Notes: generated by a model from the sequence alone, not told the origin. Counted from the first letter of the stretch, positions 22,647 through 39,768 are shown. The stretch: DNA of 64,000 bases from Candidatus Acidulodesulfobacterium acidiphilum (GCA_008534395.1 SHMQ01000007.1:23164-87163), one strand, 5' to 3'. Numbers and translations are program-made.

Positions 22647-23258
22647 TTAATCATTTAAATATTTATATAAAATTTTCCCTTTACGCGTATAAATTATTTT
22701 TGAAGGCTCGACTTTTAAAATAAAAATACCGCCTATATTTTCTCCCGTATGAATATAATGTTTTTTACCGTTTATTGCTACCAAAGCAGTATTGCCGCCC
22801 GTAAATATTAAAACCACTGTCCGTTTATTTTTGCCTGAAAATCCTTTAAATTTCAAATTTTTAACGACGTTGCTTAAATTTCCGCCTTTATTAAAACCGC
22901 TATTTGCGTTAATGAGATACGGCGCCGGTTTTGCAACGTAGTCCGCGACTACATTTTTTTGTGACTTTGAGTGCAAAATAAAAAGTCTGCTGTAATTTTC
23001 GTATTTTTTATTCGGAATACTAAAAATATCTTTAAGCGGTTTTTTAGATAATTCCGTAGATTCAGCTTTCAGGTCTGTATATTTACCTTTAACGCTTAAA
23101 TTGAGCTTAGTAATTTTTTTATTTTTACAAGACGTATTATGCAAAATATTTATTTTTTTATTATTTCCCGATTTTAGTCTGCTTAACGTCGATAGCACCG
23201 TTATAAATATAAAAAATGCAAAAATAATAACCGCAAATTTTTTAACTTTAGATTTCAT
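22647..23258 (-). CDS. GspC/PilP-like pilus-assembly protein
   Basis: 203 residues and the last gene of the nine-gene secretin operon. One N-terminal membrane helix (about residues 8-25, VIIFAFFIFITVLSTL) is followed by a Lys/Asn-rich linker. The C-terminal small beta domain (residues 130-200) runs TVVLIFTGGNTALVAINGKKHYIHTG and GGIFILKVEPSKIIYTRKGK. The pattern of an interaction domain that senses ligand or partner (IN-GKxYxxG...V..I....I.L...GK) is that of the GspC homology region and of PilP, which connect the inner-membrane platform to the secretin. The call depends on this pattern and on gene order. Confidence 0.6.
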   Translation of the reverse strand: MKSKVKKFAVIIFAFFIFITVLSTLSRLKSGNNKKINILHNTSCKNKKITKLNLSVKGKYTDLKAESTELSKKPLKDIFSIPNKKYENYSRLFILHSKSQKNVVADYVAKPAPYLINANSGFNKGGNLSNVVKNLKFKGFSGKNKRTVVLIFTGGNTALVAINGKKHYIHTGENIGGIFILKVEPSKIIYTRKGKILYKYLND

Positions 23259-23286: not shown

Positions 23287-23790
23287 TTATTTAAAACCAA
23301 TAAGTTCGGCGTTTATAATTGCATCTATTTTTCTTCCGGATTTAATATTAATTTTTTTTATTTCGAATGGAAACGATTTAAGCGTCTTTATTAAAGAAAA
23401 TAAGGCATCGATGTCCGAAAAATTACTTAATGCCACCGTAAAGTTAGTTATTTTTAAATAAACATCTTGAACATTTTTCCTATTTTCCGTCTTTTGGATG
23501 CTAATTCCGATATTAAATCCGTTTTCTTTTAAATATCTCGCATAAGATAAAAAAGACACCATATAACTATAAAATTCATGTTTTCCAGCCGTAAATTTAA
23601 TAGTTTTAATCTTATTATCTTTCTTAATATTAATTTTTAACTGTCTGATAGTATTTTTTTCGTAAGTATATGATTTATTTAATTTATAAAAATAGCTTAT
23701 AGAAGGTATTAACCCATAAAACAATATACAAGCCGAGGTTAAAGATAATAAAATTAATATTATCGACCTTTTGTTCTTAATTTTTTTCAT
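23287..23790 (-). CDS. PilO/GspM-like pilus-assembly protein
   Basis: 167 residues. A short basic N-terminus, one membrane helix (residues 9-27, SIILILLSLTSACILFYGL), a helical stretch, then a ferredoxin-like periplasmic domain (residues 70-165) with alternating strands (KTIKFTAGKHEFYSYMVSF, VYLKITNFTVALSNF, FEIKKINIKSG). Size and topology match PilO/GspM, which pair with the PilN/GspL partner encoded just upstream. Direct sequence similarity is weak, as is usual in these families. Confidence 0.6.
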   Translation of the reverse strand: MKKIKNKRSIILILLSLTSACILFYGLIPSISYFYKLNKSYTYEKNTIRQLKINIKKDNKIKTIKFTAGKHEFYSYMVSFLSYARYLKENGFNIGISIQKTENRKNVQDVYLKITNFTVALSNFSDIDALFSLIKTLKSFPFEIKKINIKSGRKIDAIINAELIGFK

Positions 23791-23839: not shown

Positions 23840-25033
23840 TTATTTTTTTAGTAATCCTAAAAATTTCATTGAAGGTTTTCCAGATTTGTCGAAAAAATAT
23901 TTAACGCTTAAAGTTTTTTTTCCGTCCAACTTTTTTGATAGCGCATTATAATTATGCGAGAATATCCTATAACCGTCGGTACCAAATACGGTTGCATTAA
24001 AAATATATCCTGCTCCCGATTTTATAATATTGATTTTTTTTATTTTGACGCTTTTCGGTAAAATCGCAAAAAATTTTTTTAAATAATTCGCAATATTAAC
24101 TTTAGGGAAATCCTCGTTAAATAAAATTTTACTTTTATCTTTATCTATTTTTAAAGATAAAACGGAAATTTTTTTGTTCATTTCTCTTATTTTTTGCACT
24201 TCGTAAAATGTTTTTTTTCGGTAAGATACAACCAGCACTTCCATTAAAAATATAGCAAATATTAAAACTGCGATATAAATATTTTTTGCCCTATTTTTTT
24301 TATCTTCTATTTTTTTAAATTTTATTTCTATATCTTCAAAATGAGGGGTATTTTTGTTTATGCTTTTAAAATATTCAAAAAAATCTTTAGCCGTAAAATT
24401 TAATATTTCTACATTTCCGAAAAAATTTTTAAAATCGGCGCAATCGCATTCGGCAATTATCTGCTCTATTTTAATGCCAATATTTTCGGAATCTATTCTG
24501 GTTTTCAAAATATTAAGATTATCCATTAACATATCCGCCTTAAAACTTAAAACCGGCATTATGCTAAAACCGTTTGAAACTAAAATCATTTTATATACGT
24601 CGTCGGTTTTTTCTATAAATAGAAAATCTTTTTTAAGATTAATGCCGTTAAATTTTTCTTTTAAAAACTCTATCACCAAAAAATCGTATGGAATAACTAT
24701 ATCTATTCCTTTAAATAACGAATAATATTTTTTAATATTTAAAGGCAGGGTATGATAAAATCCGCATCCTCCATTTATACCATCCGCAAAAAAATAAGAT
24801 TCGTTCTTATAAGATTTTCCTACGTAACGGCTTAAATAAAATTTTTTACCGTCTTTTAATCTTTTTTCCGGTATAATCGAAAAATTTATATTTTTAGATA
24901 TTATCGAAACTGCATGTTCTATTTCAAAATCGGCTGCATAATCGTCGATACGTTCATGCGAAAAAAATGATTTATCGCCGTCAAAATACTGATATATATC
25001 GTATTCTTCAATATAAATAAAATTTTTATACAT
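23840..25033 (-). CDS. GspL/PilM-PilN-like inner-membrane platform protein
   Basis: 397 residues in three parts: a cytoplasmic region of about 250 residues resembling a degenerate actin-like domain (DIVIPYDFLVIEFL, DFLFIEKTDDVYKMILVSNG), one membrane helix at 252-270 (IYIAVLIFAIFLMEVLVV), then a coiled-coil and ferredoxin-like periplasmic domain. This is the GspL layout, or a PilM-PilN fusion. The cytoplasmic part would dock the ATPase and the periplasmic part the PilO/GspM-like protein encoded next. The gene is A/T-rich, with no clear ribosome site. The role follows from topology plus operon context. Confidence 0.65.
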   Translation of the reverse strand: MYKNFIYIEEYDIYQYFDGDKSFFSHERIDDYAADFEIEHAVSIISKNINFSIIPEKRLKDGKKFYLSRYVGKSYKNESYFFADGINGGCGFYHTLPLNIKKYYSLFKGIDIVIPYDFLVIEFLKEKFNGINLKKDFLFIEKTDDVYKMILVSNGFSIMPVLSFKADMLMDNLNILKTRIDSENIGIKIEQIIAECDCADFKNFFGNVEILNFTAKDFFEYFKSINKNTPHFEDIEIKFKKIEDKKNRAKNIYIAVLIFAIFLMEVLVVSYRKKTFYEVQKIREMNKKISVLSLKIDKDKSKILFNEDFPKVNIANYLKKFFAILPKSVKIKKINIIKSGAGYIFNATVFGTDGYRIFSHNYNALSKKLDGKKTLSVKYFFDKSGKPSMKFLGLLKK

Positions 25034-25047
25034 AATTTTTTTTAAGT

Positions 25048-26010
25048 TTAATTTAATTTTATAAGGTCTGGAAGATAATTTGCAGGTATTTTTATCTCAT
25101 ATCCTGCGGGTTCTACTTGAACGTAATTCATTCCGCCTTCCCAATAAGAATACCTTACGTTCCCGTAAACTTCAGGAAGATATTTACTCTGAAACGCTCC
25201 TCCTACCCAGTAATTTTCGGTATAGGTAACGCCGGAATTATTTGTATATGCAGAACCTCCGCCGCATCCGGAATAAGGATCGTTGGCATAGCTCAATATA
25301 GCGCTATTTCCGTCAATAGCTTCAACTATAAAATATAACTTCAATTCGCCGTCTGCCCAGTCTCTTGACCATCCGTCACGATTATAACGACTCATAGTTT
25401 GCGTAACATAACAAATTGCGCCTGTAATATAAAAACTCTTTCCTATGTACTGTTCATAAATGCCGCCGTCTCCATTGCTTAAGGCTATAGGGTCTATATA
25501 AATTATTTCGTTTCCGTTAACTAACGAACTTCCGGGAATATCGTGCCTTATTTCTTTATAAAAATTATAATAGTCGTTAGGTTCGCCGCTTTGCGAAGGA
25601 GTAACGGCAAGAGTATAACTGATTTCCTGAGCGGTACCATTATTAACGGCATTATTAACGCTTAAACATATTTTAGTATCGTCTTCCGTTTTTATACTTC
25701 CGTATATGCAATTCGAATTTGGATTGCCTCCGACAAAATTTATGCCTATGCCTTTAGCTATGTACCCTGCAGATTGAAGAGAACTTATGCTACTGAATTT
25801 ACTATTATTATTAACATAGGTACTTTCGGCATTTATCAAAGTATTTGCCAGAACAGATACGTTTTGCGCTCTATTTTCGCATACAATACCCTGAAGCGCA
25901 GGTATGCTTAACGCAGTCATTATCGACAAAACTATCATTGAAACAATAATTCCTGCAAGCGAAAATCCTTTATTATTATTTTCTAAAATTTTAGCAAAAT
26001 TAATATTCAT
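25048..26010 (-). CDS. type IV pilin-like protein (large, Glu5 replaced)
   Basis: 320 residues. A 15-residue leader ends NNNKG, followed by FSLAGIIVSMIVLSIMTALS, so a prepilin peptidase would cut G15/F16. The conserved Glu at mature position 5 is Gly here, as in some minor or tip pilins. A helical stem (RAQNVSVLANTLINAESTYV) and a domain with Cys pairs follow. The C-terminal half (about residues 165-320) is rich in Tyr, Gly and Trp (RYNRDGWSRDWADGEL) and may be an adhesin-like extension. GGAGGTG precedes the start. Its globular domain is related to that of the neighbour at 26024. Confidence 0.75.
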   Translation of the reverse strand: MNINFAKILENNNKGFSLAGIIVSMIVLSIMTALSIPALQGIVCENRAQNVSVLANTLINAESTYVNNNSKFSSISSLQSAGYIAKGIGINFVGGNPNSNCIYGSIKTEDDTKICLSVNNAVNNGTAQEISYTLAVTPSQSGEPNDYYNFYKEIRHDIPGSSLVNGNEIIYIDPIALSNGDGGIYEQYIGKSFYITGAICYVTQTMSRYNRDGWSRDWADGELKLYFIVEAIDGNSAILSYANDPYSGCGGGSAYTNNSGVTYTENYWVGGAFQSKYLPEVYGNVRYSYWEGGMNYVQVEPAGYEIKIPANYLPDLIKLN

Positions 26011-26023
26011 AACACCTCCATTT

Positions 26024-26692
26024 TTAAAAAAGACTTAAGACAGATGCAAAAAAGTTTGTTATTGTCTGCGTTACTTTTGTTAATAAATTGCTCTGCGTCC
26101 CTACGGTATTGGTATAATTAATACCTCCGTTGGCGTTAGGACTTACGTTTACCGATGAAACCGGTGAAGACGCGCCAGTATTAGAGTTAGAGGCAGAAGC
26201 AGAATGAAAAGAGGGCGCTGCGTCGTTTAAACTAAAAGTTACTACGCCTAAGCCGTTAATATCGGAAACCTGCCCCGTCTTACCCGTTATGCCTTTGCTT
26301 ATTTCTTTAGCGACTATATCTTCATTGGCCAAATTTAAAGGAATATAAATTTCGATTGATTCGTTTTGTAAATTAATGCATATATTTGTCGTGCTTTTAA
26401 AGAGTAATTTTTCTAAACATGAATCTCCTTGAAAATTATAAACTTTCATCGGACTTAAATACGCCGGCTTATTGTTTTCCAAACTCGTGATATCCGTAAA
26501 AGTTCCCGTGTTTTGAAAATAAGCATGTTCTGCCTTTATTAATAAATCTGTAATATTGACGATATTTTGCGCTTCCATATTATATATTTGACCCTTAGGC
26601 ATACCGGACATTCCGAAAGAAAATTTTGGCAATAAAAATAAGTAAAAAACAAACATTATATTTAAAATAATGTAATAGCCGTAACGTTTCAT
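26024..26692 (-). CDS. secreted pilin-domain protein lacking a prepilin signal
   Basis: From the ATG at 26692: 222 residues. The N-terminus is a basic start plus hydrophobic core (IILNIMFVFYLFLLPKFSFG), a Sec-type signal peptide rather than a G/F-x4-E prepilin site. The following AQNIVNITDLLIKAEHAYFQNTGTF matches the stem of the pilin encoded next (AQNVSVLANTLINAESTYV), so it is a pilin globular domain without the assembly helix. A Ser/Asn-rich linker and a short hydrophobic C-terminus (TNFFASVLSLF) follow. An upstream TTG (26737) would add 15 residues and gives no better signal. It could be a soluble pilus-associated protein. Confidence 0.55.
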   Translation of the reverse strand: MKRYGYYIILNIMFVFYLFLLPKFSFGMSGMPKGQIYNMEAQNIVNITDLLIKAEHAYFQNTGTFTDITSLENNKPAYLSPMKVYNFQGDSCLEKLLFKSTTNICINLQNESIEIYIPLNLANEDIVAKEISKGITGKTGQVSDINGLGVVTFSLNDAAPSFHSASASNSNTGASSPVSSVNVSPNANGGINYTNTVGTQSNLLTKVTQTITNFFASVLSLF

Positions 26693-26771
26693 ATAAATAA
26701 CCTTTAATAGCTTTTTTAAGGATTTAATTAATTTCAATTTAATTTTCGCTGTTTTAACGATTGTTAACTTG

Positions 26772-27425
26772 TTAATTAAATGTAAAGGTCAGGCTTCCCT
26801 GAAAATTTGAATTATTTGCCGAAGCTGCATTACCGTTGAACAGATCCGTCAAGCAATTTTGACCGTTACCTATGTTAAAGACGGGACTGCCCTCGGTATC
26901 TACGCCGGATATTGAGTTTTCTAAAGAATTGCATATGTTTAAAGCCTGGGCATTCGTCATCTGCGGAGCGTTTATGCCGATGACGTAAATATACTGTCCC
27001 GGATTTGAATCGGTAGAAATTTGATATGCGGAAACAAAACCCGCATTAGGCGGTATAACGTTATTGCCGTTAACCGTCCATGAAGAAGGGAGCAGGTTGT
27101 CTTCCTGCATAGCATATGGAAGAGAAACGCCGGCAGGGGGAATTATACTCCCGCCGTTTACCTGCATATAAGAATTTACGGCCGATTCTAATTTAGTAAC
27201 CGATTGAACCGTTGCAGTAACATTGGAAGAACCTATTAATCCGTTATAAACCATTAATCCCCCTGCCGAAAGTATTCCGACTACTATCATTGCGACTATA
27301 ATTTCCATAAGGGTAAAACCGTTCCCGTTTTTATAAATTTTTAGTGAGTGAAAATCCAACTTGTCATTAATTTTTTTGCTTTTTTTGCTTTTAATTTTAA
27401 TTTCTTTCTTTTTTAGCGCAATCAT
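26772..27425 (-). CDS. major-type pilin with an unusually long leader
   Basis: 217 residues. The prepilin site is NGNG/FTLMEIIVAMIVVG, with Glu at mature position 5. The leader is 36 residues long and very Lys-rich; it is supported by the strong GGAGG ribosome site before the ATG at 27425. Long leaders are a mark of type IVb-like pilins. The mature part has a stem ending VTKLESAVNSYMQVNGG and a C-terminal domain with two Cys (NICNSL, QNCLTDL) that could form the usual D-loop disulfide, as in PilS-type type IVb pilins. It is the best candidate for the main subunit of the fibre. Confidence 0.85.
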   Translation of the reverse strand: MIALKKKEIKIKSKKSKKINDKLDFHSLKIYKNGNGFTLMEIIVAMIVVGILSAGGLMVYNGLIGSSNVTATVQSVTKLESAVNSYMQVNGGSIIPPAGVSLPYAMQEDNLLPSSWTVNGNNVIPPNAGFVSAYQISTDSNPGQYIYVIGINAPQMTNAQALNICNSLENSISGVDTEGSPVFNIGNGQNCLTDLFNGNAASANNSNFQGSLTFTFN

Positions 27426-27484: not shown

Positions 27485-28762
27485 TTAGTAATTAGCCGAC
27501 AAACCCACCATTCCCTGAATAAGAGGTAAAAATAAAGAAAAAAACATTAATAGCAAAAAAAGTACTACGCCTATCATTGCAAGCAAAAACAATCCTTTAG
27601 TAAATATTTTCATATATCTGTCCGCTTTTTCTTTAAATTCCTTAGAAAGATTCAAAACCGTTTCGGATAAAAACCCTCCTATTTCGCCGTACCTTATAGA
27701 CTCTATGGCATCCTCCGGCAAAAAATCGGCTTTATGCAAAGAATCAAACAACGTATTGCCTTTAATTAAATCTTGATAAACTGATTTAAATTTATTTCTA
27801 AAATATACTTTAGAACTGTTTTTTCCAAAATAATCGAATACTGCGTTAACCGTCACGCCCGAAGATATCATTAAAGAAAATTGATAAAAAATCCAGTTTA
27901 AATAAGAGTAATTTAAAATATTTTTTAACTGAGGTATGTTTTGCAAAAAGGAAAACGCTTTAGTTTTTATTCCGGATAAATCCGACAAAAAAGCGGCGAA
28001 AATAAGAACGGCGAAAAATATTATATAGATAAAAATATTTTTTAACCGCCCGAACAATTTTAACGTATAAACCGTAGACAAGGGAATATTCGGAAACTGC
28101 TTAAAGAATAACGAAAAAGTCGGAACGACGTAATAAAGAAAAACCGAAAAAGCTATAAACAGCAGTAAAAATAAAAATAAAGGATAAGCTAAGGTTCCTA
28201 TAATATTTTTTTTATAAATATTTTTAGTTTCGAAATATTCGGATATTTTTAAAAAAGATTCCGAATAATCGCCGGTAGATTCCGCTAAATCTATTAAGGA
28301 AAGTGCTATTTCTTCAAAATTATTCCTCGCAAACGCTTCTTTAACGCTTTCCCCTTTATCCAACAAATAAATGCAGTTTTTTATCAATTTTTTACGATTT
28401 TTTATCTTTGAAAGCTTATGGCTGTAATATAGGCGCTTTAATAAATATAGCAAATCATATTTTTTTGAAGATTCAGGCGTTGGTATATCTTTGTCCATAT
28501 AACTAAAAGATTTGCCGACCGAACCGGTAGATTTGACGAGATGATGCAGTTCATTAAAAAACACCGCAAGCTCGGCGTCTTTCATTCCTCCGTTGCCGGT
28601 AGGGTTTATTGCATCTAAAAAAATATTGGGTAAAACAAATGACGGCATATAGCCTTCTTCTAAAATAAGCGTTTCCGCATCCGATAAATTTTGCGCCTTA
28701 ATATTTCTTATCAGACTTTTACCTTCAGGGGTATAAAATTTGACTAAATAATTTTTTAACAT
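27485..28762 (-). CDS. GspF/PilC-like platform protein
   Basis: 425-residue polytopic inner-membrane protein of the T2SS/T4P platform family. Two repeats of the GspF domain are present (about residues 60-220 and 280-420), with helices LAYPLFLFLLLFIAFSVFLYYVVPTF, IFIYIIFFAVLIFAAFL and LFLLAMIGVVLFLLLMFFSLFLPLIQGM. The motif PEDAIESIRYGEIGGFLSETVLNLS matches the conserved F-domain segment. It would anchor the ATPase and extract pilins. The gene ends 59 nt before the major pilin gene and starts 4 nt after the ATPase gene. Confidence 0.88.
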   Translation of the reverse strand: MLKNYLVKFYTPEGKSLIRNIKAQNLSDAETLILEEGYMPSFVLPNIFLDAINPTGNGGMKDAELAVFFNELHHLVKSTGSVGKSFSYMDKDIPTPESSKKYDLLYLLKRLYYSHKLSKIKNRKKLIKNCIYLLDKGESVKEAFARNNFEEIALSLIDLAESTGDYSESFLKISEYFETKNIYKKNIIGTLAYPLFLFLLLFIAFSVFLYYVVPTFSLFFKQFPNIPLSTVYTLKLFGRLKNIFIYIIFFAVLIFAAFLSDLSGIKTKAFSFLQNIPQLKNILNYSYLNWIFYQFSLMISSGVTVNAVFDYFGKNSSKVYFRNKFKSVYQDLIKGNTLFDSLHKADFLPEDAIESIRYGEIGGFLSETVLNLSKEFKEKADRYMKIFTKGLFLLAMIGVVLFLLLMFFSLFLPLIQGMVGLSANY

Positions 28763-28766
28763 AAAT

Positions 28767-30488
28767 CTACCTCGACAAACTAAAATAAGCTTGGGGATCT
28801 ATATCGCCTGCAAGCAATTTTTCAAATGCCTGCGTTTTTAAAGATTTAAATCCCGATAAATTTATTAAAACGGATTCTAAGTAAGACTGATTAAACAATA
28901 AATTTAAGTCTTTATATATTTCCTCTTTTGCAGATTCATTAAACTCGGCAATTTCAATAAGCGGCTTTCTTTTATCGTATCCCGTTCCGCCGCAACTGTC
29001 GCAGTTTTTTTCTCCTCTCACAAAAACGGCATCGAGAAATTTTACCTCTTTAAAATCTGAAGTCGTATCGATAAATCTTGCTATGTTATTTTTACTTTTT
29101 ATATTCATTTCATAACCTGTTTCTGGGGTAAATCGTAAGTCCTGCATCAGGGCTTTTTTGTAAATAGAAGGTAACTCTTCGAAATATATCTTTTTTTTGC
29201 ATTCTGGACATAAAGGATTATACAGCCTCTGCGCCGTTACGAATCTTAATACCGAAAATAACTGAACGACATCTATATTTAAAGATTTAAATCTTCCGAA
29301 TATCGACAGAGACGAATTAGCGTGAAGCGTAGTCATGACGAGATGACCCGTTTCTGCAGCCATCAGCGCATGTTTTGCGGTAATTTCGTCCCTTATTTCG
29401 CCTATCATCATTATATCCGGCTCGCTTCTCAACATAACCCTGACGGCTTCAGGATATCCAAAATCTTCAGATATATTCATTTGCGTTATATTCGATTCGC
29501 GTAATTCTATTTCTACCGGATCTTCTATAGTCAAAATCGTACCTTTTTTCTGGGACAGCAGTTTAAGCATTGCATAAAATGTAGTAGTTTTTCCGGAACC
29601 GGTCGGTCCGGTAGCTATAATAAGTCCGTTTGGGTGTATATAAGATTTTTTTAGCAATTCGGCATTTTCTTCCGTAAAACCTATCGATTCAAAATCGAAT
29701 ACTTTATTCAAACCATGAATTCTAAGGACTGCTTCAAAAAGCATGGTTTCTTTGTCGAGCTTCGATGAAATGGGTAAAAATGCAACTCTAATGCTAACTT
29801 TTAACCCTTTATAAAAATTTGAAACAAAAATAAATTTTGCGTCTAATCCCTCGCCTTTTTTTAAAGTAATTCTGCAATTTGCGGCTATAATATTTATTAT
29901 CCTCTGTCCCGACTCCAAGCTTAGAACTCTTATGTTTTCCTGATAAATTTCTCCGTCCATAATAATCATGTAAAAATTTTCCGTTCTTTTTATCCTTAAA
30001 TTAGGTGATCCTTTTAATAACGCTATTTCAATTGCCTCGTTTAAAATTTCTTTTTCGGAGAACTCTTTATTGCTAATAAATATCTTACTGAGCGCTTCGT
30101 AAATTTTTCTTTTCGTAGAAATAGCTATTTTATAAGATTTAAGACGTTCGTCAAAAGCTATCTTTCCCGACAAAGATGATGTAATTTCATTGCAAACTAT
30201 ATAGCTGATCCCGTCTTTTTTTGCTATTACGGCTGGAATATCATATAGCAGGGCAAAGCCGAAATATTCATTTTCCTTTTTATCTATATAAAACGAATTT
30301 AAATCGCCGAAAAATTCTCTTCCTGAACTGTCTGCCGCATAAAGCGCTATATCGGCATCTGTAACATAGCCACAATCCGTTAATATTTCACCCAGTCTTT
30401 TTTTGCCGATAGACTGCATGAATAGTGCATCTTTAAGCTGTTCTTCAGTAAACTTTCTTTTCGATATAAAATATTCGCCGATTTTCAT
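28767..30488 (-). CDS. type IV pilus/type II secretion assembly ATPase (GspE/PilB-like)
   Basis: 573 residues from the ATG at 30488 (a TTG at 30503 would add five). The N-terminal GspE_N-like domain (LKDALFMQSIGKKRLGEIL) is followed by the hexameric ATPase core: Walker A GPTGSGKTTTFY, Asp box TILTIEDPVEIE, Walker B MLRSEPDIMMIGEIRD and His box GHLVMTTLHANSS. A zinc-binding tetracysteine motif follows (CPECKKK ... CDSCGGTGY), as in GspE/PilB but not in retraction ATPases. It powers fibre growth. No PilT-type retraction ATPase is in the window. Confidence 0.93.
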   Translation of the reverse strand: MKIGEYFISKRKFTEEQLKDALFMQSIGKKRLGEILTDCGYVTDADIALYAADSSGREFFGDLNSFYIDKKENEYFGFALLYDIPAVIAKKDGISYIVCNEITSSLSGKIAFDERLKSYKIAISTKRKIYEALSKIFISNKEFSEKEILNEAIEIALLKGSPNLRIKRTENFYMIIMDGEIYQENIRVLSLESGQRIINIIAANCRITLKKGEGLDAKFIFVSNFYKGLKVSIRVAFLPISSKLDKETMLFEAVLRIHGLNKVFDFESIGFTEENAELLKKSYIHPNGLIIATGPTGSGKTTTFYAMLKLLSQKKGTILTIEDPVEIELRESNITQMNISEDFGYPEAVRVMLRSEPDIMMIGEIRDEITAKHALMAAETGHLVMTTLHANSSLSIFGRFKSLNIDVVQLFSVLRFVTAQRLYNPLCPECKKKIYFEELPSIYKKALMQDLRFTPETGYEMNIKSKNNIARFIDTTSDFKEVKFLDAVFVRGEKNCDSCGGTGYDKRKPLIEIAEFNESAKEEIYKDLNLLFNQSYLESVLINLSGFKSLKTQAFEKLLAGDIDPQAYFSLSR

Positions 30489-30659
30489 ATGACTAAAAAA
30501 CAAATAAATTTATTATTGATTTATTTTGATATCTTTATTGTTTGTTTATAAATCTTTATGCTCTATATATACGTATATACATAAACATCTATAATAAACA
30601 CGAATGAAAATTTTTATTTTATACTCATTTTCTGCTGCAAATTTTTTGTAAATTCAGCT

Positions 30660-32393
30660 TTATCTGATTATTTTCGGCGTAAGCATTATAAGCAGGTCTT
30701 CTTTTTCATCGGTATCGTTTACAGACTTGAAAAAATTGCCAAACAGAGGTATTTTAGAAAATATAGGAATTCCGTACGTATTTTTAACTTTATCAGTCGT
30801 AAGTATTCCTCCTACAAGTATCGTCGAACCCGACTTTACGTTTACGGTGTCGGAAAAGCTTTTCGATTCTATTACAGGATTACTGAAACTTTCCTCCCCG
30901 ATTGCAAAAGACTGATAGCCTGTAATAGAATTATCTATTAGGCTTAACGTAACGGAAACGGAATTATTTTTAAAATTTATATGAGGAGTAAAAGATATCG
31001 AAAGCCCCGTTTGAACCTGAGATATAACAGGATAAGTTTCCGTCTGCGACAAACTTAGCGACATCGTCTGAATACTCGAAACATAAGGGGTTATAGTGCC
31101 GGAAGATATAAGCCTCGTCTGCCCATCCATTAAAACAAGCCTTGGCTGAGAGATAACGTCGACTGCCCCCTGAGTCCTCAAAGCGTTTAAAATTGCGCTG
31201 TTGCTTCCAGAACCCTTAAAACCTATATACGGCGCATTAGAAATATTGTTTGAAGACGCAAGCTGAGCCGAAACCGACAATGAATCCGCCCCAAAAACAT
31301 TAGACTTAAAAGCCTGATTAAATAATAAATTCCAGTTTATTCCCGCCTGAAATCCTTTATTTAAATTTACGTCTATTACCTCAACTTTTAAAAACACCTG
31401 TTTTGAAAGAAACTTATTTATTCTTTTTATATAAGCCGCAACTTCATTGACATTTGAAACTCTGTCTTTTACCCATATCAATCCGTCTTTCGGATTAATA
31501 AAATATTTTCCGTTTTTAGTTAACATTTCTTTTATATTTCTGGAAATTATAGAATATAGACTGTCCGATTCCGACAATGTAAGCGAAAGCGAACCGGAAG
31601 GATTGCCCGAATAACCGCCGCCGTTTCCATAATTACCGTTTACGCCGGAGTTTATTAAACCGGAAGACAAAGAATCAGAAGAACCTGAACCGGATGATTC
31701 GGTATTTCCTCCTGTAATACCCGTCCCGCCTCCTTCCGGTATTTCTTGAGTATTTCCGTTATTAATGCTAGAATTAACGCCTCCTCCTTCTATACCGCTC
31801 ATGCCGACTGTCGAAGAAAAAGTTGATAATAGATCCGATACCGGAATATGGAAGGTTTTTTCTTCTACGGCATAAACATAAAGCATTTTATTTTTATAAC
31901 TGTAAGCAAAACCGTTAGAAACCAAAAGTCCGTTTAAAACTTTATACAACGGAATATCTTTATAATATGCTTCGTTCTTCAATTTATCAGGAAAACCCCT
32001 GTAAATTACAAAAGGAACGCCCGTTTCATGAGATAAAGTCATTAATGCGGATTTTACGCTTCCGTTTCCGGAAAGTGAAATTCTTTGCCTCAAAAAATAA
32101 GGCATATTCATATTCATTTTAGTTAAACTTTTTTTGCAGATTGCTCCGTTAATTTCTTCACAACCTCTATTTTTACGAACATTTACAGATAGACGATCCT
32201 CCTTTTTCCCATCGAAATTAATATGTACTATTCCGGCTTTTTTAATTTTTATCCCGTATTTCTTAAGTAATTCGTTAAAACTGTTTTGATTCTTATTATA
32301 AGCTGCGCATACTTTAACCGAAAAAATCATACCGATACTTGCAACTGCAGTAATAAATATAAACGCCGATAATTTTTTGTTTTTAATTTTCAT
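30660..32393 (-). CDS. secretin (MshL/PilQ/GspD-like)
   Basis: 577 residues, first gene of the pilus-like operon. Signal peptide to about residue 30. An STN/secretin N-like region (FVIYRGFPDKLKNEAYYKDIPLYKVLNGLL) is followed by a Gly/Ser/Asn-rich linker (about 195-265). The C-terminal secretin domain has VDVISQPRLVLMDGQTRLISSG and ends with the family signature YGIPIFSKIPLFGNFFKS, then LLIMLTPKII. It forms the outer-membrane ring. There is no lipobox. It is shorter than GspD, with fewer N-domains, resembling MSHA or type IVb secretins. Its promoter carries five 11-nt-spaced repeats also found before comM. Confidence 0.92.
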   Translation of the reverse strand: MKIKNKKLSAFIFITAVASIGMIFSVKVCAAYNKNQNSFNELLKKYGIKIKKAGIVHINFDGKKEDRLSVNVRKNRGCEEINGAICKKSLTKMNMNMPYFLRQRISLSGNGSVKSALMTLSHETGVPFVIYRGFPDKLKNEAYYKDIPLYKVLNGLLVSNGFAYSYKNKMLYVYAVEEKTFHIPVSDLLSTFSSTVGMSGIEGGGVNSSINNGNTQEIPEGGGTGITGGNTESSGSGSSDSLSSGLINSGVNGNYGNGGGYSGNPSGSLSLTLSESDSLYSIISRNIKEMLTKNGKYFINPKDGLIWVKDRVSNVNEVAAYIKRINKFLSKQVFLKVEVIDVNLNKGFQAGINWNLLFNQAFKSNVFGADSLSVSAQLASSNNISNAPYIGFKGSGSNSAILNALRTQGAVDVISQPRLVLMDGQTRLISSGTITPYVSSIQTMSLSLSQTETYPVISQVQTGLSISFTPHINFKNNSVSVTLSLIDNSITGYQSFAIGEESFSNPVIESKSFSDTVNVKSGSTILVGGILTTDKVKNTYGIPIFSKIPLFGNFFKSVNDTDEKEDLLIMLTPKIIR

Positions 32394-32437: not shown

Positions 32438-32513
32438 ATTATATTTTTTTAATGTTTCCACATTATGACAATTTTGTTACATTTACATTAAATTTTTGTT
32501 AAATTTATGTTAC
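32438..32513 (-). promoter_or_regulatory. secretin promoter with 11-nt phased pho-box-like repeats
   Basis: On the minus strand five pentamers, GTAAC, TTAAC, TTAAT, GTAAC and GTCAT, are separated by exactly 6 nt each (32513 to 32465). TATAAT (32443-32438) begins 26 nt after the first base of the last pentamer, and the start codon is about 45 nt further. The comM promoter has the same repeats, the same 26-nt distance and a shared GAAACA between array and -10. An 11-nt period and TGTCAT/TGTAAC units are typical of PhoB-family boxes. Confidence 0.7.
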
Positions 32514-32821
32514 ATATCGGGCAAGATTATAGTAAAAATCTTTATTGAAAGGTTTTTATAGTGAATCGCGGACTAAAAAAACGAAATATATATACAAAAA
32601 TTCATGATGATATTTTAGAAAATTTTAAATGACTATAATCAAACAACTAAATAAAAATAGAATCAATGGATAAACCTTGGCCGACGACGCTTAATATTCA
32701 CAAGCTCCGTTTAATACATGCTTTCGACACAACGTACTTTAAAAAACGCATTTCGATAATTGACAGAAATAGGTATAAATGGTATTATTTATATATATTA
32801 AAGATAATACTATCCAATTAT
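32514..32821. other. intergenic stretch, one possible 23-codon frame
   Basis: About 300 A/T-rich bases before tRNA-Arg(UCU). The only coding-like item is a GTG-started frame at 32561-32632 (+), VNRGLKKRNIYTKIHDD then seven more residues, preceded by GAAAGG at good spacing. It may be a small peptide or a gene remnant. Nothing else is recognisable. Confidence 0.3.
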
Positions 32822-32898
32822 GCGTTCATAGCTCAGATGGATAGAGCAACAGCCTTCTAAGCTGTGGGTCGCAGGTTCGAATCCTGCTGGACGCACCA
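32822..32898 (+). tRNA. tRNA-Arg (anticodon TCT)
   Basis: A 77-nt cloverleaf. Acceptor GCGTTCA pairs with TGGACGC, the anticodon loop CTTCTAA gives TCT (codon AGA), the T-loop is TTCGAAT, and CCA is encoded. An imperfect inverted repeat (AAGGGTTTTAA / TTAAAACCTT) follows within 40 nt and may help end the transcript. Confidence 0.96.
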
Positions 32899-33197
32899 TT
32901 AAATCAAGGGTTTTAATATCGTTTTTAAAACCTTCTCGCGTCAAAGAAATGTAAAGTTTCGGGAAATATATACATAGCTTATATTTAAAAATTCTTCCTT
33001 TGTAAACATTTTAAAACTCTTAAAATAAGAAATTATTTTAAAAATATAACATATTTATATTTTAAAATTTTCTTGATATAATTTAAAAAAAATGATATCT
33101 TTAATAGCGCTTCAATGTTAGTTTATATAAAAATATAATATCGTTATATTTTTATATCTAATAATTAAACAATATAAATATAATTTATTTAAAATCT
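32899..33197. other. non-coding spacer between tRNA-Arg and the TDT transporter gene
   Basis: About 300 A/T-rich bases. Besides the hairpin-like sequence right after the tRNA, there is a TATAAT at 33179-33184, 13 nt before the transporter ATG, which may be its -10 box. No other structure was recognised. Confidence 0.4.
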
Positions 33198-34376
33198 ATG
33201 AAAAAAGATATTAAAAAAAACGGCTCGTTTGTCAACAATTTGCGCCCGTTGAAACAAATGAACAAACCGAGCGACCTTATAAGACAATTCACCCCAAACT
33301 GGTTTACTATGAATATGGGTACTGGAATTTTGTCTCTTATGCTGGGAGCTTTCCCGTTTTATGTGCCGGGTCTCTTAATGGTAGCTAAAACTTTATGGGT
33401 TATAAATATTTTTCTTTTTGTAATCTTTAGCGTTTTATTTATAGGCAGATTTGTTTTTTATTTTAAATCGGCGGTAAAGTTGTTCGGCCACCCGATTCAA
33501 TCCATGTTTCTTGGAGCTATTCCTATGGGATTGGTAACTATTATAAACGGTTTTTTAAATTTCGCAGGCCCGAAAATGGTCAATCTTGCTTTCTATTTAT
33601 GGTGGATAGACGTAATAATAAGCGTTATTGTAGGTATTCTTGTGCCTTTCTATATGTTCACTAACCATACCCACAGCATTGAAGACATGACTGCCGTATG
33701 GCTATTGCCTATAGTACCCGCCGAAGTTGCGGCTTCTTCGGGAGGTTTTCTTGCTCCGCATTTAGCGGCGGCGGCGGCAAGAGTAGTAGTAGTTACCGGC
33801 TATGCTTTATGGGCATTCTCGGTTCCTTTAGCTTTCGGCGTTCTCGTTATACTGTTTTTGCGTCTTGCCTGGCACAAATTGCCGCATAAAGATATGGCGG
33901 TTTCTACCTGGTTGACGCTGGGTCCGATAGGCACGGGAAGTTTAGGACTTCTTCTCCTGGGAAGCGATGCACCGCGTGCATTTATCGGCACTAAACTTTT
34001 TATTTACGCTAAAACGGCTGCAGCATTCGGTCCTATAGGCGGGCTGGTTATATGGGGATTCGGTTTCTGGTGGCTTATTATTGCATTATTATTAACTATA
34101 AGATATGTAAAAGAAGGAATGCCTTTTAATATGGGCTGGTGGGGATTTACCTTCCCGCTGGGTGTTTACACTGCAGCTACGATTATATTCTATAGGATTA
34201 CCGGTATTGAATTTTTCAGGATTACTGGGGCTATATTCGTCATAATGCTTGCTGGATTCTGGACGTTAGTTACGTCGAGAACGCTTCATGGCATGTGGCA
34301 CGGCTATCTTTTTAAAGCTCCGTGCCTGTCGACAGAAACTGGTTTGCCGGACGAATCTAAAGAATGCCCTGTTTAA
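33198..34376 (+). CDS. TDT-family transporter (TehA/Mae1/Ssu1-like)
   Basis: 392 residues with ten hydrophobic segments in the TDT pattern. It opens with IRQFTPNWFTMNMGTGILSLML, the family signature (FxPxWFxxxMGTGI). Later marks are VPFYMFTNHTHSIEDMTAVWLLPIVPAEVAASSGG and the WWGFTFPLGVYTAATI helix. Members carry C4-dicarboxylates, malate, tellurite or, in Ssu1, sulfite. The WLLPIVPAEVAA and WW.FTFP segments occur in the sulfite/dicarboxylate branch, but the substrate is uncertain. It is monocistronic and converges with the nitroreductase gene 20 nt away. Confidence 0.85.
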   Translation: MKKDIKKNGSFVNNLRPLKQMNKPSDLIRQFTPNWFTMNMGTGILSLMLGAFPFYVPGLLMVAKTLWVINIFLFVIFSVLFIGRFVFYFKSAVKLFGHPIQSMFLGAIPMGLVTIINGFLNFAGPKMVNLAFYLWWIDVIISVIVGILVPFYMFTNHTHSIEDMTAVWLLPIVPAEVAASSGGFLAPHLAAAAARVVVVTGYALWAFSVPLAFGVLVILFLRLAWHKLPHKDMAVSTWLTLGPIGTGSLGLLLLGSDAPRAFIGTKLFIYAKTAAAFGPIGGLVIWGFGFWWLIIALLLTIRYVKEGMPFNMGWWGFTFPLGVYTAATIIFYRITGIEFFRITGAIFVIMLAGFWTLVTSRTLHGMWHGYLFKAPCLSTETGLPDESKECPV

Positions 34377-34396
34377 TTCAATATCTTAATCTTGCA

Positions 34397-34999
34397 TTAT
34401 AATACAACCGTAATAACTTCTTCGACATTCATCCTCGACGATTTAGACTTTCTTTCGACCGGTTTTCCGACAGGAATCAATGCAACGAGATTGTCGGGGC
34501 TTTTAATACCGAGTATGTTTTCTATTTCAGGTTTGGCGATTAGGGGTCCCGTCATCCAGCATGCCCCAAGTCCTTCGTTGTGAACTACAAGCAAAATGTG
34601 GGCTATAAAGCTGGATACGCCCTGAAGTCCCGGATTTACTATAAATTTTCTGGCGAAATTCCTGTCTTTATTTTTATCGTTATTTTCAAGTATTTTATCA
34701 ATACTGCCGGTATACGGCTTCTCCACGACTGCAAGTACGACCGGCGCTTCGTTAAAAAATGCATAAACGTCCGGCGCATCTTTGCCCGTTACGTTTTTAT
34801 ATACGGTTTCCACTTCGCTTCTCATTTTATTAAGAATATCTTTGTTTTTAATTATATATGTAAACCAGTTTTGAGCGTTTCCCCCGCTTGGCGAATTTAT
34901 AGAAATTTCCATAATTTTTTTTATCAGATTCAAATCAACGTCTTCAGACTCGAATTTTCTTATGCTCTTTCTGGTTTTAACTGCTTCTATTAAGTCCAA
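34397..34999 (-). CDS. nitroreductase-family flavoprotein
   Basis: 200 residues. The FMN-binding nitroreductase fold starts with the usual TRKSIRKFESEDV (Arg residues to the FMN phosphate), then ISINSPSGGNAQNWFTYII, followed by NEGLGACWMTGPLIAKPEIENILGI and a closing ALIPVGKPVE, all family marks. It would act as an FMN-dependent NAD(P)H oxidoreductase dimer in the cytoplasm; the natural substrate is not predictable. It has its own AGGAG ribosome site, with no operon partners. Confidence 0.93.
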   Translation of the reverse strand: MDLIEAVKTRKSIRKFESEDVDLNLIKKIMEISINSPSGGNAQNWFTYIIKNKDILNKMRSEVETVYKNVTGKDAPDVYAFFNEAPVVLAVVEKPYTGSIDKILENNDKNKDRNFARKFIVNPGLQGVSSFIAHILLVVHNEGLGACWMTGPLIAKPEIENILGIKSPDNLVALIPVGKPVERKSKSSRMNVEEVITVVL

Positions 35000-35092
35000 T
35001 TTACGTCTCCTTTTTGCAAAACATTTATTTATATGCTTATTTCGTTTAAAGCTCCGAAATTATCGTAATATTATATAACAAAAACGATTTAA

Positions 35093-37378
35093 TTAAAACG
35101 GCTGATTCAATCCGAAATAATATCTGACCCCGTATTCAGAGCCGACTCTGTCGCCGAACGCTTTTGCGGCGTAAAAACTAAACATTTCGGGATATATCCC
35201 GAAAAAGTAAGTTTTGAAGTGCAAACCGAGTCCCGCAAAACTATATATAACGCCTTTATGAATAACCGAAGGAACGGTATCGTCAAGCTTGCCTGCGCCG
35301 CCTATTACGTTTCCGGTCACGGCGGTTATATCAATAAGGTTATCTAATAGATTCAAGTTTAATCCCCGGTATATATTTCTTTCATAATCTGCTTCGGCAA
35401 TTACGGCATCGTTACCGATAAAGGGTTCGCTTGCAGGTATACCCATAATGCCGTTAATTCCGCCCAGATAATAATCAAGAGCTTCGGGAACGTTTCCGTC
35501 GGCAAAAACGCCTATGCCTCTTACGGATATTATGTTATCCGCATTTATTTTAAAATTTCTTACATACTGCAGCATAAACTGACTAAAGGAAAAAGGCGAA
35601 AATATATTTGAATTGGCTATATTATAAGTAAAGTTAAACGATGAACCGTATTGAGGATTAATATTATAATCTACCGAATTATATCCATAGCCGACTGTAA
35701 ATTCCGTCAGTCTTTTAGAATTTTGATAAATTACAGAATCGCCCGATGCAGAGGGGCTTATCTGCATAAAATTTATCGAACCGAAAATCGACTGCCTGTA
35801 TGTCTGGGCGACAGGAAAAAAATTTCCAAGCTGATGAGACAAACCTATGCTTATGCCTCTTCCGTAATATGTTTTAAATATATTAAATAAAATGCCGTTT
35901 CTATAACCGTGTTTTTTCGTCAGGGTAAAATTTAGATAGCCTTCAGAACGTCCGCTATCAGGACTTATATTACCGCCTGTACTGCTTAGGAAAAGTTTAT
36001 AATAGTCGTTTTTCTTTTTACTTAAAATTTTTTTTTCAATCTTTTCTTTGTTTATAATATTTAAATCGTTATTGTAATAATATACTCCGTTTTTAAACCC
36101 GTGCGTGCGCGGAAAACCTGTAAAATATATATAATACAAAGGAAATATAGGATAATTTATAACCGTATTTACTCCCTGAATAAAATTAAATTTTTTAACG
36201 ATATTTTTTATATTCGGATTGCTATTTATATATTTTTTCAAAAACGTTTTGAATTCTAAATCAGTATATTTTTTTAATTCTTGCGAATACAGGTAGTACT
36301 TGTAACTGCTCATACCAATGCTTATTTCGTTTATAAATTTTTTATAATTAACCGTGTTTAAATATATTAATCCTTTTATAATATTTAATTTTTGATATAT
36401 ATAAAAATTTGGAAAAATATTGCCGAATCTCGTGCTTATTAAAATAGTTTTTGAATATAAAGGCGGTTTTAGCCATAAACTCCGCCTTAAATGAACGTAA
36501 ACTATATTTATTTTTTTTAATTTCAACATATTGTATTTATCCAATAATAACGCCGCCTTGTCTATTTTTTTATTTGACCGTCCAAAATTGTACGGGTAAG
36601 GCTGAAAAAAAAATATAGATAAACCTGTTTTTACGTTAGAAATTCTGCTTTTTATAAATTTTTTTGCGAATATTAAAGAAATAAAATTAGTTCTCTTCCC
36701 GATAAAAAAGTTTTTTTTATAAATTTTGCCGTTAAAAAACGCTTTATATCCGGCTTTTATTTTAAGATTAACTTTAAAATTAATATCGGTTTGGGGATTA
36801 AATTTTTTGCCTGAGGAAATATATGGATAAAACGGAGCATTAATTACTGTTTCTTGTTTAAAATGCCCGAAGTTGCCGATTGCCTGAGGAATTTTCGTCT
36901 TAAAAACAATTTTAACTTTATAAGATTTGTATAATTTATGTATTGTCGAACTATAAGATAAACTCTTTATGCTTATATATCCCCTATTAAAATCGTAAGG
37001 GTAAAGCTGATGAAAATCAAAATCTTTTATATTCTTAGGTTTTTTATAAAAGATGTTCGGATAAAACATAATATAAAAATTACGATAAATTTTTATATAT
37101 ATGCCTCTGAAATTTTTATATTTATCGCCGATTTTTTTTATTTTACGATATTTTTCTTCATATTTTTTTTTAAAATTATACCGGATATAATTAATTATTT
37201 CACTGCCGGATATAGTTTCGGTTTTCGGATTAAAAACAGCATTTATTTTAACGGTCTGCATAGGAAATTTGTCGCCGTAAATATGAATTATTCCCGCATA
37301 TGCGCCGTTAGTGACGCATAACAAACAAAAAACTGCTATCGCAAAACTTAACGTTAAAACTTTTACAAAGTTTTTCAT
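35093..37378 (-). CDS. surface-antigen (Omp85-like) beta-barrel with M1-peptidase-like N-terminal region
   Basis: About 761 residues from the ATG at 37378, which begins a clear signal peptide (VLTLSFAIAVFCLLCVTNGAYA). Residues 30-440 resemble the front of M1-type aminopeptidase-like proteins (VNAVFNPKTETISGSEIINYI; KTKIPQAIGNFG; PFYPYISSG), but no HExxH zinc motif exists, so it should not be a peptidase. From about residue 450 the protein is a bacterial surface antigen (D15) barrel: repeated amphipathic strands, SIFGSINFMQISPSASGD, YYLGGINGIMGIP, and an end at YGVRYYFGLNQPF with a terminal Phe. It is a candidate outer-membrane translocon or anchor. An upstream TTG at 37393 would add five residues. 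Confidence 0.75.
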   Translation of the reverse strand: MKNFVKVLTLSFAIAVFCLLCVTNGAYAGIIHIYGDKFPMQTVKINAVFNPKTETISGSEIINYIRYNFKKKYEEKYRKIKKIGDKYKNFRGIYIKIYRNFYIMFYPNIFYKKPKNIKDFDFHQLYPYDFNRGYISIKSLSYSSTIHKLYKSYKVKIVFKTKIPQAIGNFGHFKQETVINAPFYPYISSGKKFNPQTDINFKVNLKIKAGYKAFFNGKIYKKNFFIGKRTNFISLIFAKKFIKSRISNVKTGLSIFFFQPYPYNFGRSNKKIDKAALLLDKYNMLKLKKINIVYVHLRRSLWLKPPLYSKTILISTRFGNIFPNFYIYQKLNIIKGLIYLNTVNYKKFINEISIGMSSYKYYLYSQELKKYTDLEFKTFLKKYINSNPNIKNIVKKFNFIQGVNTVINYPIFPLYYIYFTGFPRTHGFKNGVYYYNNDLNIINKEKIEKKILSKKKNDYYKLFLSSTGGNISPDSGRSEGYLNFTLTKKHGYRNGILFNIFKTYYGRGISIGLSHQLGNFFPVAQTYRQSIFGSINFMQISPSASGDSVIYQNSKRLTEFTVGYGYNSVDYNINPQYGSSFNFTYNIANSNIFSPFSFSQFMLQYVRNFKINADNIISVRGIGVFADGNVPEALDYYLGGINGIMGIPASEPFIGNDAVIAEADYERNIYRGLNLNLLDNLIDITAVTGNVIGGAGKLDDTVPSVIHKGVIYSFAGLGLHFKTYFFGIYPEMFSFYAAKAFGDRVGSEYGVRYYFGLNQPF

Positions 37379-37477
37379 TGATTTAAATAGCAAATTTATA
37401 ATATAATCATAAAAAACATTAAAGCTATACTATTTTAATTTTACCTTAAATAGTTTAAAAATAAAGCGTTAAATATT

Positions 37478-37960
37478 ATGGGCGTTACATTCAAACTCGC
37501 TGAAATTAACGGCGTAACACTTAAAAGAATCGAAAAATATATAGACGAACGGGGTTGGCTTGCGGAACTTTACAGGAGCGACGAATTAGACGAATCCGTT
37601 TTCCCTCAGATGTCTTATGTATCTTTAACAATGCCTAGAGTGCAAAGAGGACCTCACGAACACGTATATCAAACCGACTATTTTTGCTTTATAGGCCCTT
37701 CCGATTTTAAAATTATATTGTGGGACAACAGAAAAGATTCCCCTACATACATGAATAAAATGATACTGTTTCTCGGTGAAAATAAGCCTTCGGCACTGAC
37801 GGTGCCTCCTGGCGTAGTTCACGCATATAAAAACATAGGCGGAAAAAACGGTCTCGTTATTAATGCCGCCAATAAATTATTCGCCGGAAAAAATAAAAAA
37901 GAGCCGGTTGACGAAATCAGATATGAATCCGACCCCAAAACTATATTTATTTTCGATTAG
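37478..37960 (+). CDS. RmlC-like sugar epimerase (dTDP-4-dehydrorhamnose 3,5-epimerase family)
   Basis: 160-residue cupin. The pattern RIEKYIDERGWLAELYR, the His site RGPHEHVYQTDYFCF, IILWDNRKDSPTYMNK and LTVPPGVVHAYKNI follow the RmlC fold. In canonical enzymes the His of RGxH is the base. It is shorter than RmlC (about 180 residues) and no other dTDP-sugar gene is near, so the true substrate may differ. It stands alone between the surface-antigen gene and comM. Confidence 0.75.
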   Translation: MGVTFKLAEINGVTLKRIEKYIDERGWLAELYRSDELDESVFPQMSYVSLTMPRVQRGPHEHVYQTDYFCFIGPSDFKIILWDNRKDSPTYMNKMILFLGENKPSALTVPPGVVHAYKNIGGKNGLVINAANKLFAGKNKKEPVDEIRYESDPKTIFIFD

Positions 37961-37982
37961 ATAAATATAATTTGGATAATCT

Positions 37983-39641
37983 TTACGCTTTTATAAGTTT
38001 TGTATTCCTGTAATTTAATGCTTCCAACACGGAATCTGCATCTACTTCTTCTTTCATGTCGAGGTCGGCTATAGTCCTTGAAACGCGCAATATTCTATAA
38101 TAGCCCCTTGAAGAAATATTTAATCTTTTTACGGCTTTTTGTGCAAGATTAAGGGCTTCATTCGTTATGTTAAAATATTTTTCTATATCTGTGCTTTTTG
38201 CCGACGAGTTAAACCTGATGCAGCTATCTTTATATCTGCTAATCTGAATATTTCTAGTTTTTTCGACTAATTTTTTAATATCGTCGGAATCTGGCAAATC
38301 GGCTTTAACGGTTAATTCGTCTAAATCCGCAGGATAAACCTCTATAAATATGTCGAATCTGTCGAGAATAGGTCCCGATATTTTAGTATAAAACTTATAA
38401 ATGTCGGCGCTTGAACATTTACACTCATGTTTTGCGTCTCCGTAATAGCCGCAAGGACAAGGGTTCATTGCGGCGACAAGCATAAAATTGCTGGGCAGAA
38501 TTATAGAAAAACGGCTTCTGGATAAATTAATATACTTATCTTCCATAGGCTGCCTTAATCCATCTATAGTTTTTCTGTTAAGTTCGGAAAATTCGTCTAT
38601 AAAAAGAACGCCGTTATGCGCAAGGCTTATATCGCCGGGCAGAGGATTAGAACCGCCCCCTCCGCCTATTAATCCCGCAAGAGATACAGTATGATGCACG
38701 ACAATAAAAGGTCTTCTTAATATAAGTCCGTTTTCCTCGCCGCAATTTTTTTTATTTTTATTTGAAAAACTGTATATATTGGACGTCTCTAAAGATTCTT
38801 CAAGCGATAAGTCTGGTTGTATCCATGCTATACTATGCGCCAGCATAGTTTTTCCGCTTCCCGGAGGTCCGACCATTAATATGTTATGGTGACCTGCTAT
38901 AGCGGTTAAAACGGCTCTTTTAGCAAACTCCTGCCCCTTTATTTCGGCAAAATCGACATACTGCCCCCGCTCTTTTTTTACGGCGTTTGCATTTTCGATA
39001 ACATTTTTAAAGTAAAGATTTTCTTCATTCTCGTTAACGTCATATTTGCCGTTTTCTTTATTTTCGTAATTTATATTTATCTTATTATTAAAATAAACTT
39101 GGGATTCTTTTTCTTCTATTGAATAATAATCTTTTCCTCCCGAAATAAACATACATAATTCTTTTAAACTGCCGAATGCCGCAAAATCGACTCCAAGAAA
39201 TTTTGCCGCATTTATGTTTTCATACGGAATAATTAACTTTTTATTTATTTTTTTAGCAAGTATTCCAAGCGCAATTATGCCGTTAATTTTTTTTATTTTT
39301 CCGTTTAAAGACAGCTCTCCGGCAATTATATAATCGTTAAGGTTTAAGGCGCATTTAAGGAGTCCTGCGGAAATTAAAATGCCTATTGCAAGCGGCAGGT
39401 CGAATATCGGACCTTCTTTCCTTATATCGGCAGGGGCTAGATTTATAGTTATTTTTTTAACCGGATATTCAAAACCGGAATTTTTTATCGCGGCTCTTAC
39501 TCTGTCCTTGGCCTCTTTGGTGGAAACATCGGGTAACCCTACTATCATAATGCCCGGTATGCCGCCCGATATAAAAACTTCTACGTTTACCCGAACTGCA
39601 TCTATTCCGATGAAAGTCGCACTGTTTAAAGCAGTTATCAT
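37983..39641 (-). CDS. comM: ComM/YifB-like AAA+ (Mg-chelatase-like) protein
   Basis: 552 residues. N-terminal YifB domain (NSATFIGIDAVRVNVEVFISGGIPGIMIVGLPD; a Lon-like fold), then the AAA+ module with Walker A MVGPPGSGKTMLAHS and Walker B GVLFIDEFSELNR, the Cys segment NPCPCGYYGDAKHECKC, sensor DRFDIFIEV and the C-terminal Mg-chelatase domain (SSRGYYRILRVSRTIADLD). ComM is a helicase that promotes branch migration of transforming DNA in natural competence. The linker between domains (about 185-230) is longer than usual. Its promoter shares an 11-nt repeat array with the secretin operon. Confidence 0.92.
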   Translation of the reverse strand: MITALNSATFIGIDAVRVNVEVFISGGIPGIMIVGLPDVSTKEAKDRVRAAIKNSGFEYPVKKITINLAPADIRKEGPIFDLPLAIGILISAGLLKCALNLNDYIIAGELSLNGKIKKINGIIALGILAKKINKKLIIPYENINAAKFLGVDFAAFGSLKELCMFISGGKDYYSIEEKESQVYFNNKININYENKENGKYDVNENEENLYFKNVIENANAVKKERGQYVDFAEIKGQEFAKRAVLTAIAGHHNILMVGPPGSGKTMLAHSIAWIQPDLSLEESLETSNIYSFSNKNKKNCGEENGLILRRPFIVVHHTVSLAGLIGGGGGSNPLPGDISLAHNGVLFIDEFSELNRKTIDGLRQPMEDKYINLSRSRFSIILPSNFMLVAAMNPCPCGYYGDAKHECKCSSADIYKFYTKISGPILDRFDIFIEVYPADLDELTVKADLPDSDDIKKLVEKTRNIQISRYKDSCIRFNSSAKSTDIEKYFNITNEALNLAQKAVKRLNISSRGYYRILRVSRTIADLDMKEEVDADSVLEALNYRNTKLIKA

Positions 39642-39692
39642 AATACCTAAACCTCTTCTAATTTAATAAATAATTAAAATCCGTTATTATTT

Positions 39693-39768
39693 ATTATAAA
39701 AAGAAATTGTTTCAGGATTATGACAAATATGTTACGATTGCGTTAAATTTTTGTTACGATTGCGTTAC
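39693..39768 (-). promoter_or_regulatory. comM promoter with 11-nt phased pho-box-like repeats
   Basis: On the minus strand five pentamers, GTAAC, GTAAC, TTAAC, GTAAC and GTCAT, each separated by 6 nt (39768 to 39720). Two spacers are the same GCAATC. TATAAT (39698-39693) starts 26 nt after the first base of GTCAT, and the comM ATG is 51 nt beyond it. Array, spacing and the GAAACA between are shared with the secretin promoter at 32438-32513. Confidence 0.72.

Follow-up and report, generated by a model that had tools for sequence, protein, structure and literature searches.

A six-unit PHO-type promoter class shared by a secretin operon and comM in Candidatus Acidulodesulfobacterium acidiphilum

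Results and discussion

We analysed a 64,000-nt stretch of DNA from Candidatus Acidulodesulfobacterium acidiphilum (GCA_008534395.1 SHMQ01000007.1:23164-87163; hereafter the window, from whose first letter positions are counted), in which two minus-strand promoters, one ahead of an operon beginning with a secretin gene (start codon at 32393) and one ahead of comM (start codon at 39641), carry closely similar arrays of phased short repeats. Read directly from the window sequence, the two minus-strand 52-mers, GTAACATAAATTTAACAAAAATTTAATGTAAATGTAACAAAATTGTCATAAT and GTAACGCAATCGTAACAAAAATTTAACGCAATCGTAACATATTTGTCATAAT, pair without gaps at 41 of 52 positions (79%), as claimed in the original prediction. 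Its other measurements also held, namely five pentamers recurring exactly every 11 nt in both arrays, TATAAT at a distance of 26 nt from GTCAT, and 69 and 76 nt between array and ATG. GAAACA, which had been taken for an element lying between the array and the -10, is found in phase, 11 nt past GTCAT, in both promoters and is hence a sixth, degenerate unit (GAAAC at 32454..32458 for the secretin operon and at 39709..39713 for comM). The secretin-operon promoter (32438..32513, 53.5 bits) thus reads GTAAC, TTAAC, TTAAT, GTAAC, GTCAT, GAAAC with its -10 TATAAT at 32438-32443, and the comM promoter (39693..39768, 64.5 bits) reads GTAAC, GTAAC, TTAAC, GTAAC, GTCAT, GAAAC with TATAAT at 39693-39698; in both, the full geometry is six units followed by 10 nt and TATAAT.

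The window is AT-rich (G+C 0.35), as would suit an origin of the arrays by chance or from low-complexity AT repeats, yet such an origin is hardly conceivable. Two five-unit arrays, each with TATAAT at 26 nt, are present in the real sequence, whereas 40 versions of the window simulated with a first-order Markov model contained none. A strict search for GTNAC x3 returned zero matches because the units mix GTNAC and TTAAC, and an Rfam scan found no RNA explanation at the arrays, its only matches being RNase P and tRNAs elsewhere. Further to that, comM and the secretin were searched for in relatives and the upstream DNA compared: within one genus the array is kept in the same register and free of indels at the promoters of 16 comM genes and 14 secretin genes, and TATAAT is retained in 30 of 30, although some of the comM promoters have a degenerate unit 1. 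In the pentamers of the comM promoters, column conservation averages 0.90 versus 0.55-0.66 in their 45-nt flanks, and in the secretin set 0.94 versus 0.65-0.79, so that selection appears to act on the operator itself. Conservation of 30 promoters at fixed spacing, together with the clean gap in scores described below, rules out a chance origin and bears out the shared promoter architecture proposed for the two transcription units. Two copies of comM, each behind a complete array, are present in one relative (L052 and L071; contigs C69 and C125 of genome G005). The relatives are metagenome bins, AT-rich and seemingly of acid-mine origin, and may belong to the Acidulodesulfobacterales (a group treated in PMC6776010).

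The wider regulon was assembled by searching with patterns and sequence models and by retrieving individual stretches, a procedure from which weaker or shorter boxes may escape. A pattern scan of the genome allowing up to two mismatches gave 80 matches versus 25 for the reversed control, and the zero-mismatch matches were all arrays bar one simple tandem repeat. Two matches were rejected as operators: C4:70028 is an inverted repeat with the same-strand downstream gene absent, and C18:1497 is a simple 11-nt tandem repeat, TTTATCGGACA (L008, ~1497-1545), probably unrelated to operators. Two architectures are present, each captured by its own sequence model: four units at phosphate genes (class P, model R2) and six units (class D, model R1), the latter including the secretin-operon and comM promoters. 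Across the whole genome the class D model found 10 sites at 44-66 bits, while class P sites scored ~11-26 and the remainder below ~15. The geometry from last unit to -10 is identical in the two classes, GTNACAAAAATTTAAC is common to both, and GTAACATTnATTTGATA forms the end of several class D promoters, as of class P; a model built on class D only retrieves class P sites above noise, and the class P model does the same for class D sites. Both box and spacing therefore recur in the genome and its relatives, where the original prediction had suggested that further copies be sought.

Class P precedes pstS (promoter at C39:2468-2521), a phosphate:H+ symporter gene, phosphoesterases resembling phospholipase C (PLC) or acid phosphatase, the cluster CHAD-Ppx-Ppx-PPK1 and a TonB-dependent receptor region. 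Class D precedes the secretin operon, comM, a type IV secretion system (T4SS) operon with genes for TraC/VirB4, TrbL/VirB6-like, VirB10/TrbI and VirD4/TraD-like proteins and a transglycosylase, an operon for an HNH-like protein, a REP-associated tyrosine transposase (RAYT) gene, and genes for small proteins. In the relatives it recurs before the same gene families, namely the secretin operon, comM, a VirB/TraC-type secretion operon (11 loci), a weakly HNH-matching protein with a TPR protein behind it (11 loci), a ~100-aa protein (10), coiled-coil proteins (8), a 77-aa membrane protein (3), RAYT-type transposases (5) and, in two genomes, further prepilins.

Some of these loci have features of their own. 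The type IV secretion operon is immediately followed by genes for a TdeIII-type restriction endonuclease and a DNA methylase (L276:2994-5582, C11). In five genomes the promoter ahead of the RAYT gene is of the class D PHO type (L044:64-867 on C68; L155, L191, L193, L194). The array with its coiled-coil gene occurs twice in the genome carrying the window (L037 and L038; C14:2867 and C19:19200), with identical arrays and differing flanks, which suggests a duplicated or mobile unit. Another six-unit array, at L031:4914-4973 (C1:70913), is flanked by ssb on the plus strand and by pilVWX/pilY1-like genes on the minus strand; here the usual spacing to a -10 is absent, and the array is followed in the direction of ssb by a TTGCCA-N17-TATCAT promoter.

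PHO boxes are defined by two 11-nt direct repeats, each unit having seven well conserved and four less conserved nucleotides (PMC4415409), and the E. coli box usually replaces the -35 region (PMC4971064). Here we find six head-to-tail 11-nt units with an exact period and GTAAC/TTAAC/GTCAT cores, a replaced -35 with 10 nt from the last unit to TATAAT, and, in the same genome, a box of the same kind at pstS, the phosphate symporter and CHAD-Ppx-PPK. The promoters of E. coli phoA and pstS, which are of the PhoB-sigma70 type, are similar in their head-to-tail 11-nt units and in the replacement of the -35; in phoA ten nucleotides separate the last GTCAC from TATAGT, the same geometry as in our promoters, and a phased 11-nt series is present at pstS. 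We infer that both arrays are extended PHO boxes, with PhoB binding and a phosphate response predicted, because phosphate genes are preceded by arrays that are related to them and share their -10 geometry. A PhoB/OmpR-type box and a possible link to phosphate had been proposed for this locus, and both proposals are supported by these comparisons. The likeness to E. coli is incomplete, however: its PHO boxes have two to four units versus six here, GTAAC and TTAAC units are combined here with a single GTCAT/TTCAT, and the targets here are a pilus, a T4SS and comM. The complex Pho operators of Streptomyces also contain several direct-repeat units and fall into classes differing in unit number (PMC4415409), whereas the six-unit class described here keeps a fixed register and goes with one gene theme throughout a genus.

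The original prediction went on to propose a competence and pilus regulon. ComM, a branch-migration helicase, acts in natural transformation (PMC11612176), and its box is shared with a secretin operon encoding an ATPase, a platform protein closest to ComGB, and prepilins. Apart from this pilus machine, however, no class D target but comM is classically linked to competence, the others being type IV secretion, HNH-like, RAYT and uncharacterised proteins. ComEC (PF03772) was not found in the genome, which is rated 100% complete as a draft in 70 contigs, with a working control that matched 10 of 14 genomes. Phosphate genes follow class P boxes, while neither dprA, comEA nor any com gene besides comM lies behind the ten class D sites, dprA and comEA not having been searched for directly in the genome. 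A regulon for competence in the sense of natural transformation is therefore quite improbable, and a wider programme of pilus and DNA traffic fits class D better, because comM stands beside a type IV secretion system and HNH-like and RAYT proteins.

The gene products of the two minus-strand transcription units can be described as follows. ComM (37983..39641) is a YifB-family Mg-chelatase-like AAA ATPase (TIGR00368, 522 bits, over the cut-off; also matched in Pfam). The secretin (30660..32393; PF00263, 2e-34) is closest to MshL of the MSHA-type pilus (TIGR02519, 1e-46, below cut-off) and is followed by a PilB/GspE-type ATPase (28767..30503; PF00437, 4e-62) with a weak N-terminal MshE-type cyclic di-GMP motif (NF053729, 35.9 bits, cut-off 38), a PilC/GspF/ComGB-type platform protein (27485..28762; PF00482, 8e-30) whose closest NCBIfam model is ComGB, and a prepilin with an N-methylation motif (26772..27425; PF07963). 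Next come a protein without family match (26024..26737), resembling a 112-aa stretch of a prepilin-like gene of a relative, and a pilin-like protein (25048..26010) with a prepilin-type N-terminus by eye and no Pfam match. The 397-aa product of 23840..25033 may be a PilM/GspL-like inner-membrane protein, a hint that comes from the fold of a low-confidence model (mean pLDDT 55; Foldseek PilM, 4e-5). The last two products have no family match; by position, a small membrane protein (23287..23790) would be PilO-like and the final protein (22647..23258) possibly PilP-like.

Phosphate control would also suit a type II-like machine exporting phosphatases or phospholipases, with comM as a passenger. 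The Hxc system of Pseudomonas aeruginosa is a comparable case of phosphate-controlled type II-like secretion, and PLC/acid-phosphatase-like enzymes are encoded within class P operons. We consider this explanation of the secretin operon unlikely, as the secretin is nearer to MshL (1e-46) than to GspD (2e-32), the ATPase carries an MshE-type motif, ComGB is the nearest model for the platform protein, the 397-aa protein matches PilM (with the low model confidence given above), and the remaining class D genes are DNA-related. The parts of an MSHA or type IVa pilus are all present by family or fold, as in known operons with secretin, ATPase, platform, prepilins and PilM-like protein, although none of the proteins passes an MSHA or PilB/PilC equivalog cut-off and the operon differs from those in its Pho-type promoter. 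The operon is accordingly better read as encoding a machine like an MSHA or type IV pilus than a type II secretion system.

A response regulator encoded elsewhere, possibly of PhoB type, had been anticipated. The genome encodes two OmpR-family response regulators, RR-a (C15) and RR-b (C1). RR-a has PhoB as its best model (TIGR02154, 248 bits, cut-off 296) and VDVHIRRLR as its recognition helix; its gene lies upstream of a tamB-like gene and has no adjacent kinase. The two best models of a histidine kinase on C6 are PnpS (260 bits, cut-off 400) and PhoR (214 bits, cut-off 334), and the genes for the PhoB-like regulator and the PhoR-like kinase are thus unlinked.

RR-b is ArsR-like, occurs in 13 of 16 genomes and adjoins a kinase over the curated ArsS cut-off, in which this second pair resembles ArsRS of Campylobacterota. 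As OmpR-family regulators number only two and classes D and P are separable architectures, RR-b could bind class D instead, and pilus and comM would then answer acid or envelope stress rather than phosphate. This is rather unlikely, since the RR-b operon has a box of its own, conserved at 10 of 13 loci and made up of three units (TTTAC-N6-TTTAT-N6-TTAAC-N10-TATAAT), which lacks the G-type units of class D arrays. G occupies the first unit position in 0 of 30 RR-b box units versus 36 of 52 in class P and 207 of 384 in class D (Fisher 5e-11 and 6e-10, respectively, values overstated by the use of related genomes, whose units are not independent), and no RR-b box sites are among the matches of the class D model. 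An assignment of class P to RR-b, considered on account of its gene lying inside class P clusters, was dropped in view of the different box in the RR-b operon. The RR-b box, seen in L215 (~178-220) as well as ahead of the RR-b gene in L213, L217, L218, L219 and L212, precedes either a Spy/CpxP-like gene or RR-b itself and forms a third 11-nt operator class with the same -10 spacing.

By exclusion, because RR-b has its own, different box, classes P and D are most simply explained as PhoB sites, and class D is probably controlled by PhoB (RR-a) as a six-unit Pho branch devoted to pili and DNA traffic. Several observations weigh against this conclusion. Both RR-a and the C6 kinase score below their equivalog cut-offs (for the kinase, those of PhoR and PnpS alike), several relatives have their RR-b gene amid clustered class P sites, and the separation of class D from class P in score may point to a separate regulator. 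In addition, searches detected no RR-a in 6 of the 16 congeners, although these six retain both class P and class D sites. Three of the six draft genomes have a contig end inside the adjacent tamB-like gene, and there the absence looks technical; in the other three the tamB-like gene is also missing, and the lack of RR-a in the six is uninformative because its neighbour is either cut or missing too.

Under control by the PhoB-like regulator, low phosphate would be the signal and the programme would serve attachment and DNA traffic. The unlinked PhoR-like kinase would phosphorylate the orphan PhoB-like regulator, which would then bind six half-sites in tandem, with room for three dimers. The last unit would stand in for the -35 element, 10 nt ahead of TATAAT, allowing the bound regulator to recruit sigma70 RNA polymerase and switch on the pilus operon and comM. 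Class D would likewise drive the type IV secretion operon, the HNH-like operon, the RAYT transposase and the small proteins, with phosphate uptake and storage genes driven from the four-unit class P boxes.

Conclusions

We tentatively suggest that phosphate scarcity turns on a distinct, genus-conserved six-unit Pho branch comprising a pilus, a T4SS, ComM, HNH-like proteins and RAYT, by which phosphorus hunger may be tied to horizontal DNA exchange, or to DNA scavenging without ComEC. No report of a six-unit Pho branch was found in the literature searched, which lay mostly outside subscription journals. PHO boxes themselves are textbook knowledge, but through a strictly conserved six-unit class reserved for pili, a T4SS and a recombination helicase, phosphate starvation would be linked with the exchange of DNA. 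An uncultured genus thereby gains a regulon definition, and with it a testable idea: under phosphate hunger, these bacteria may engage in DNA exchange or use DNA as a source of phosphorus.

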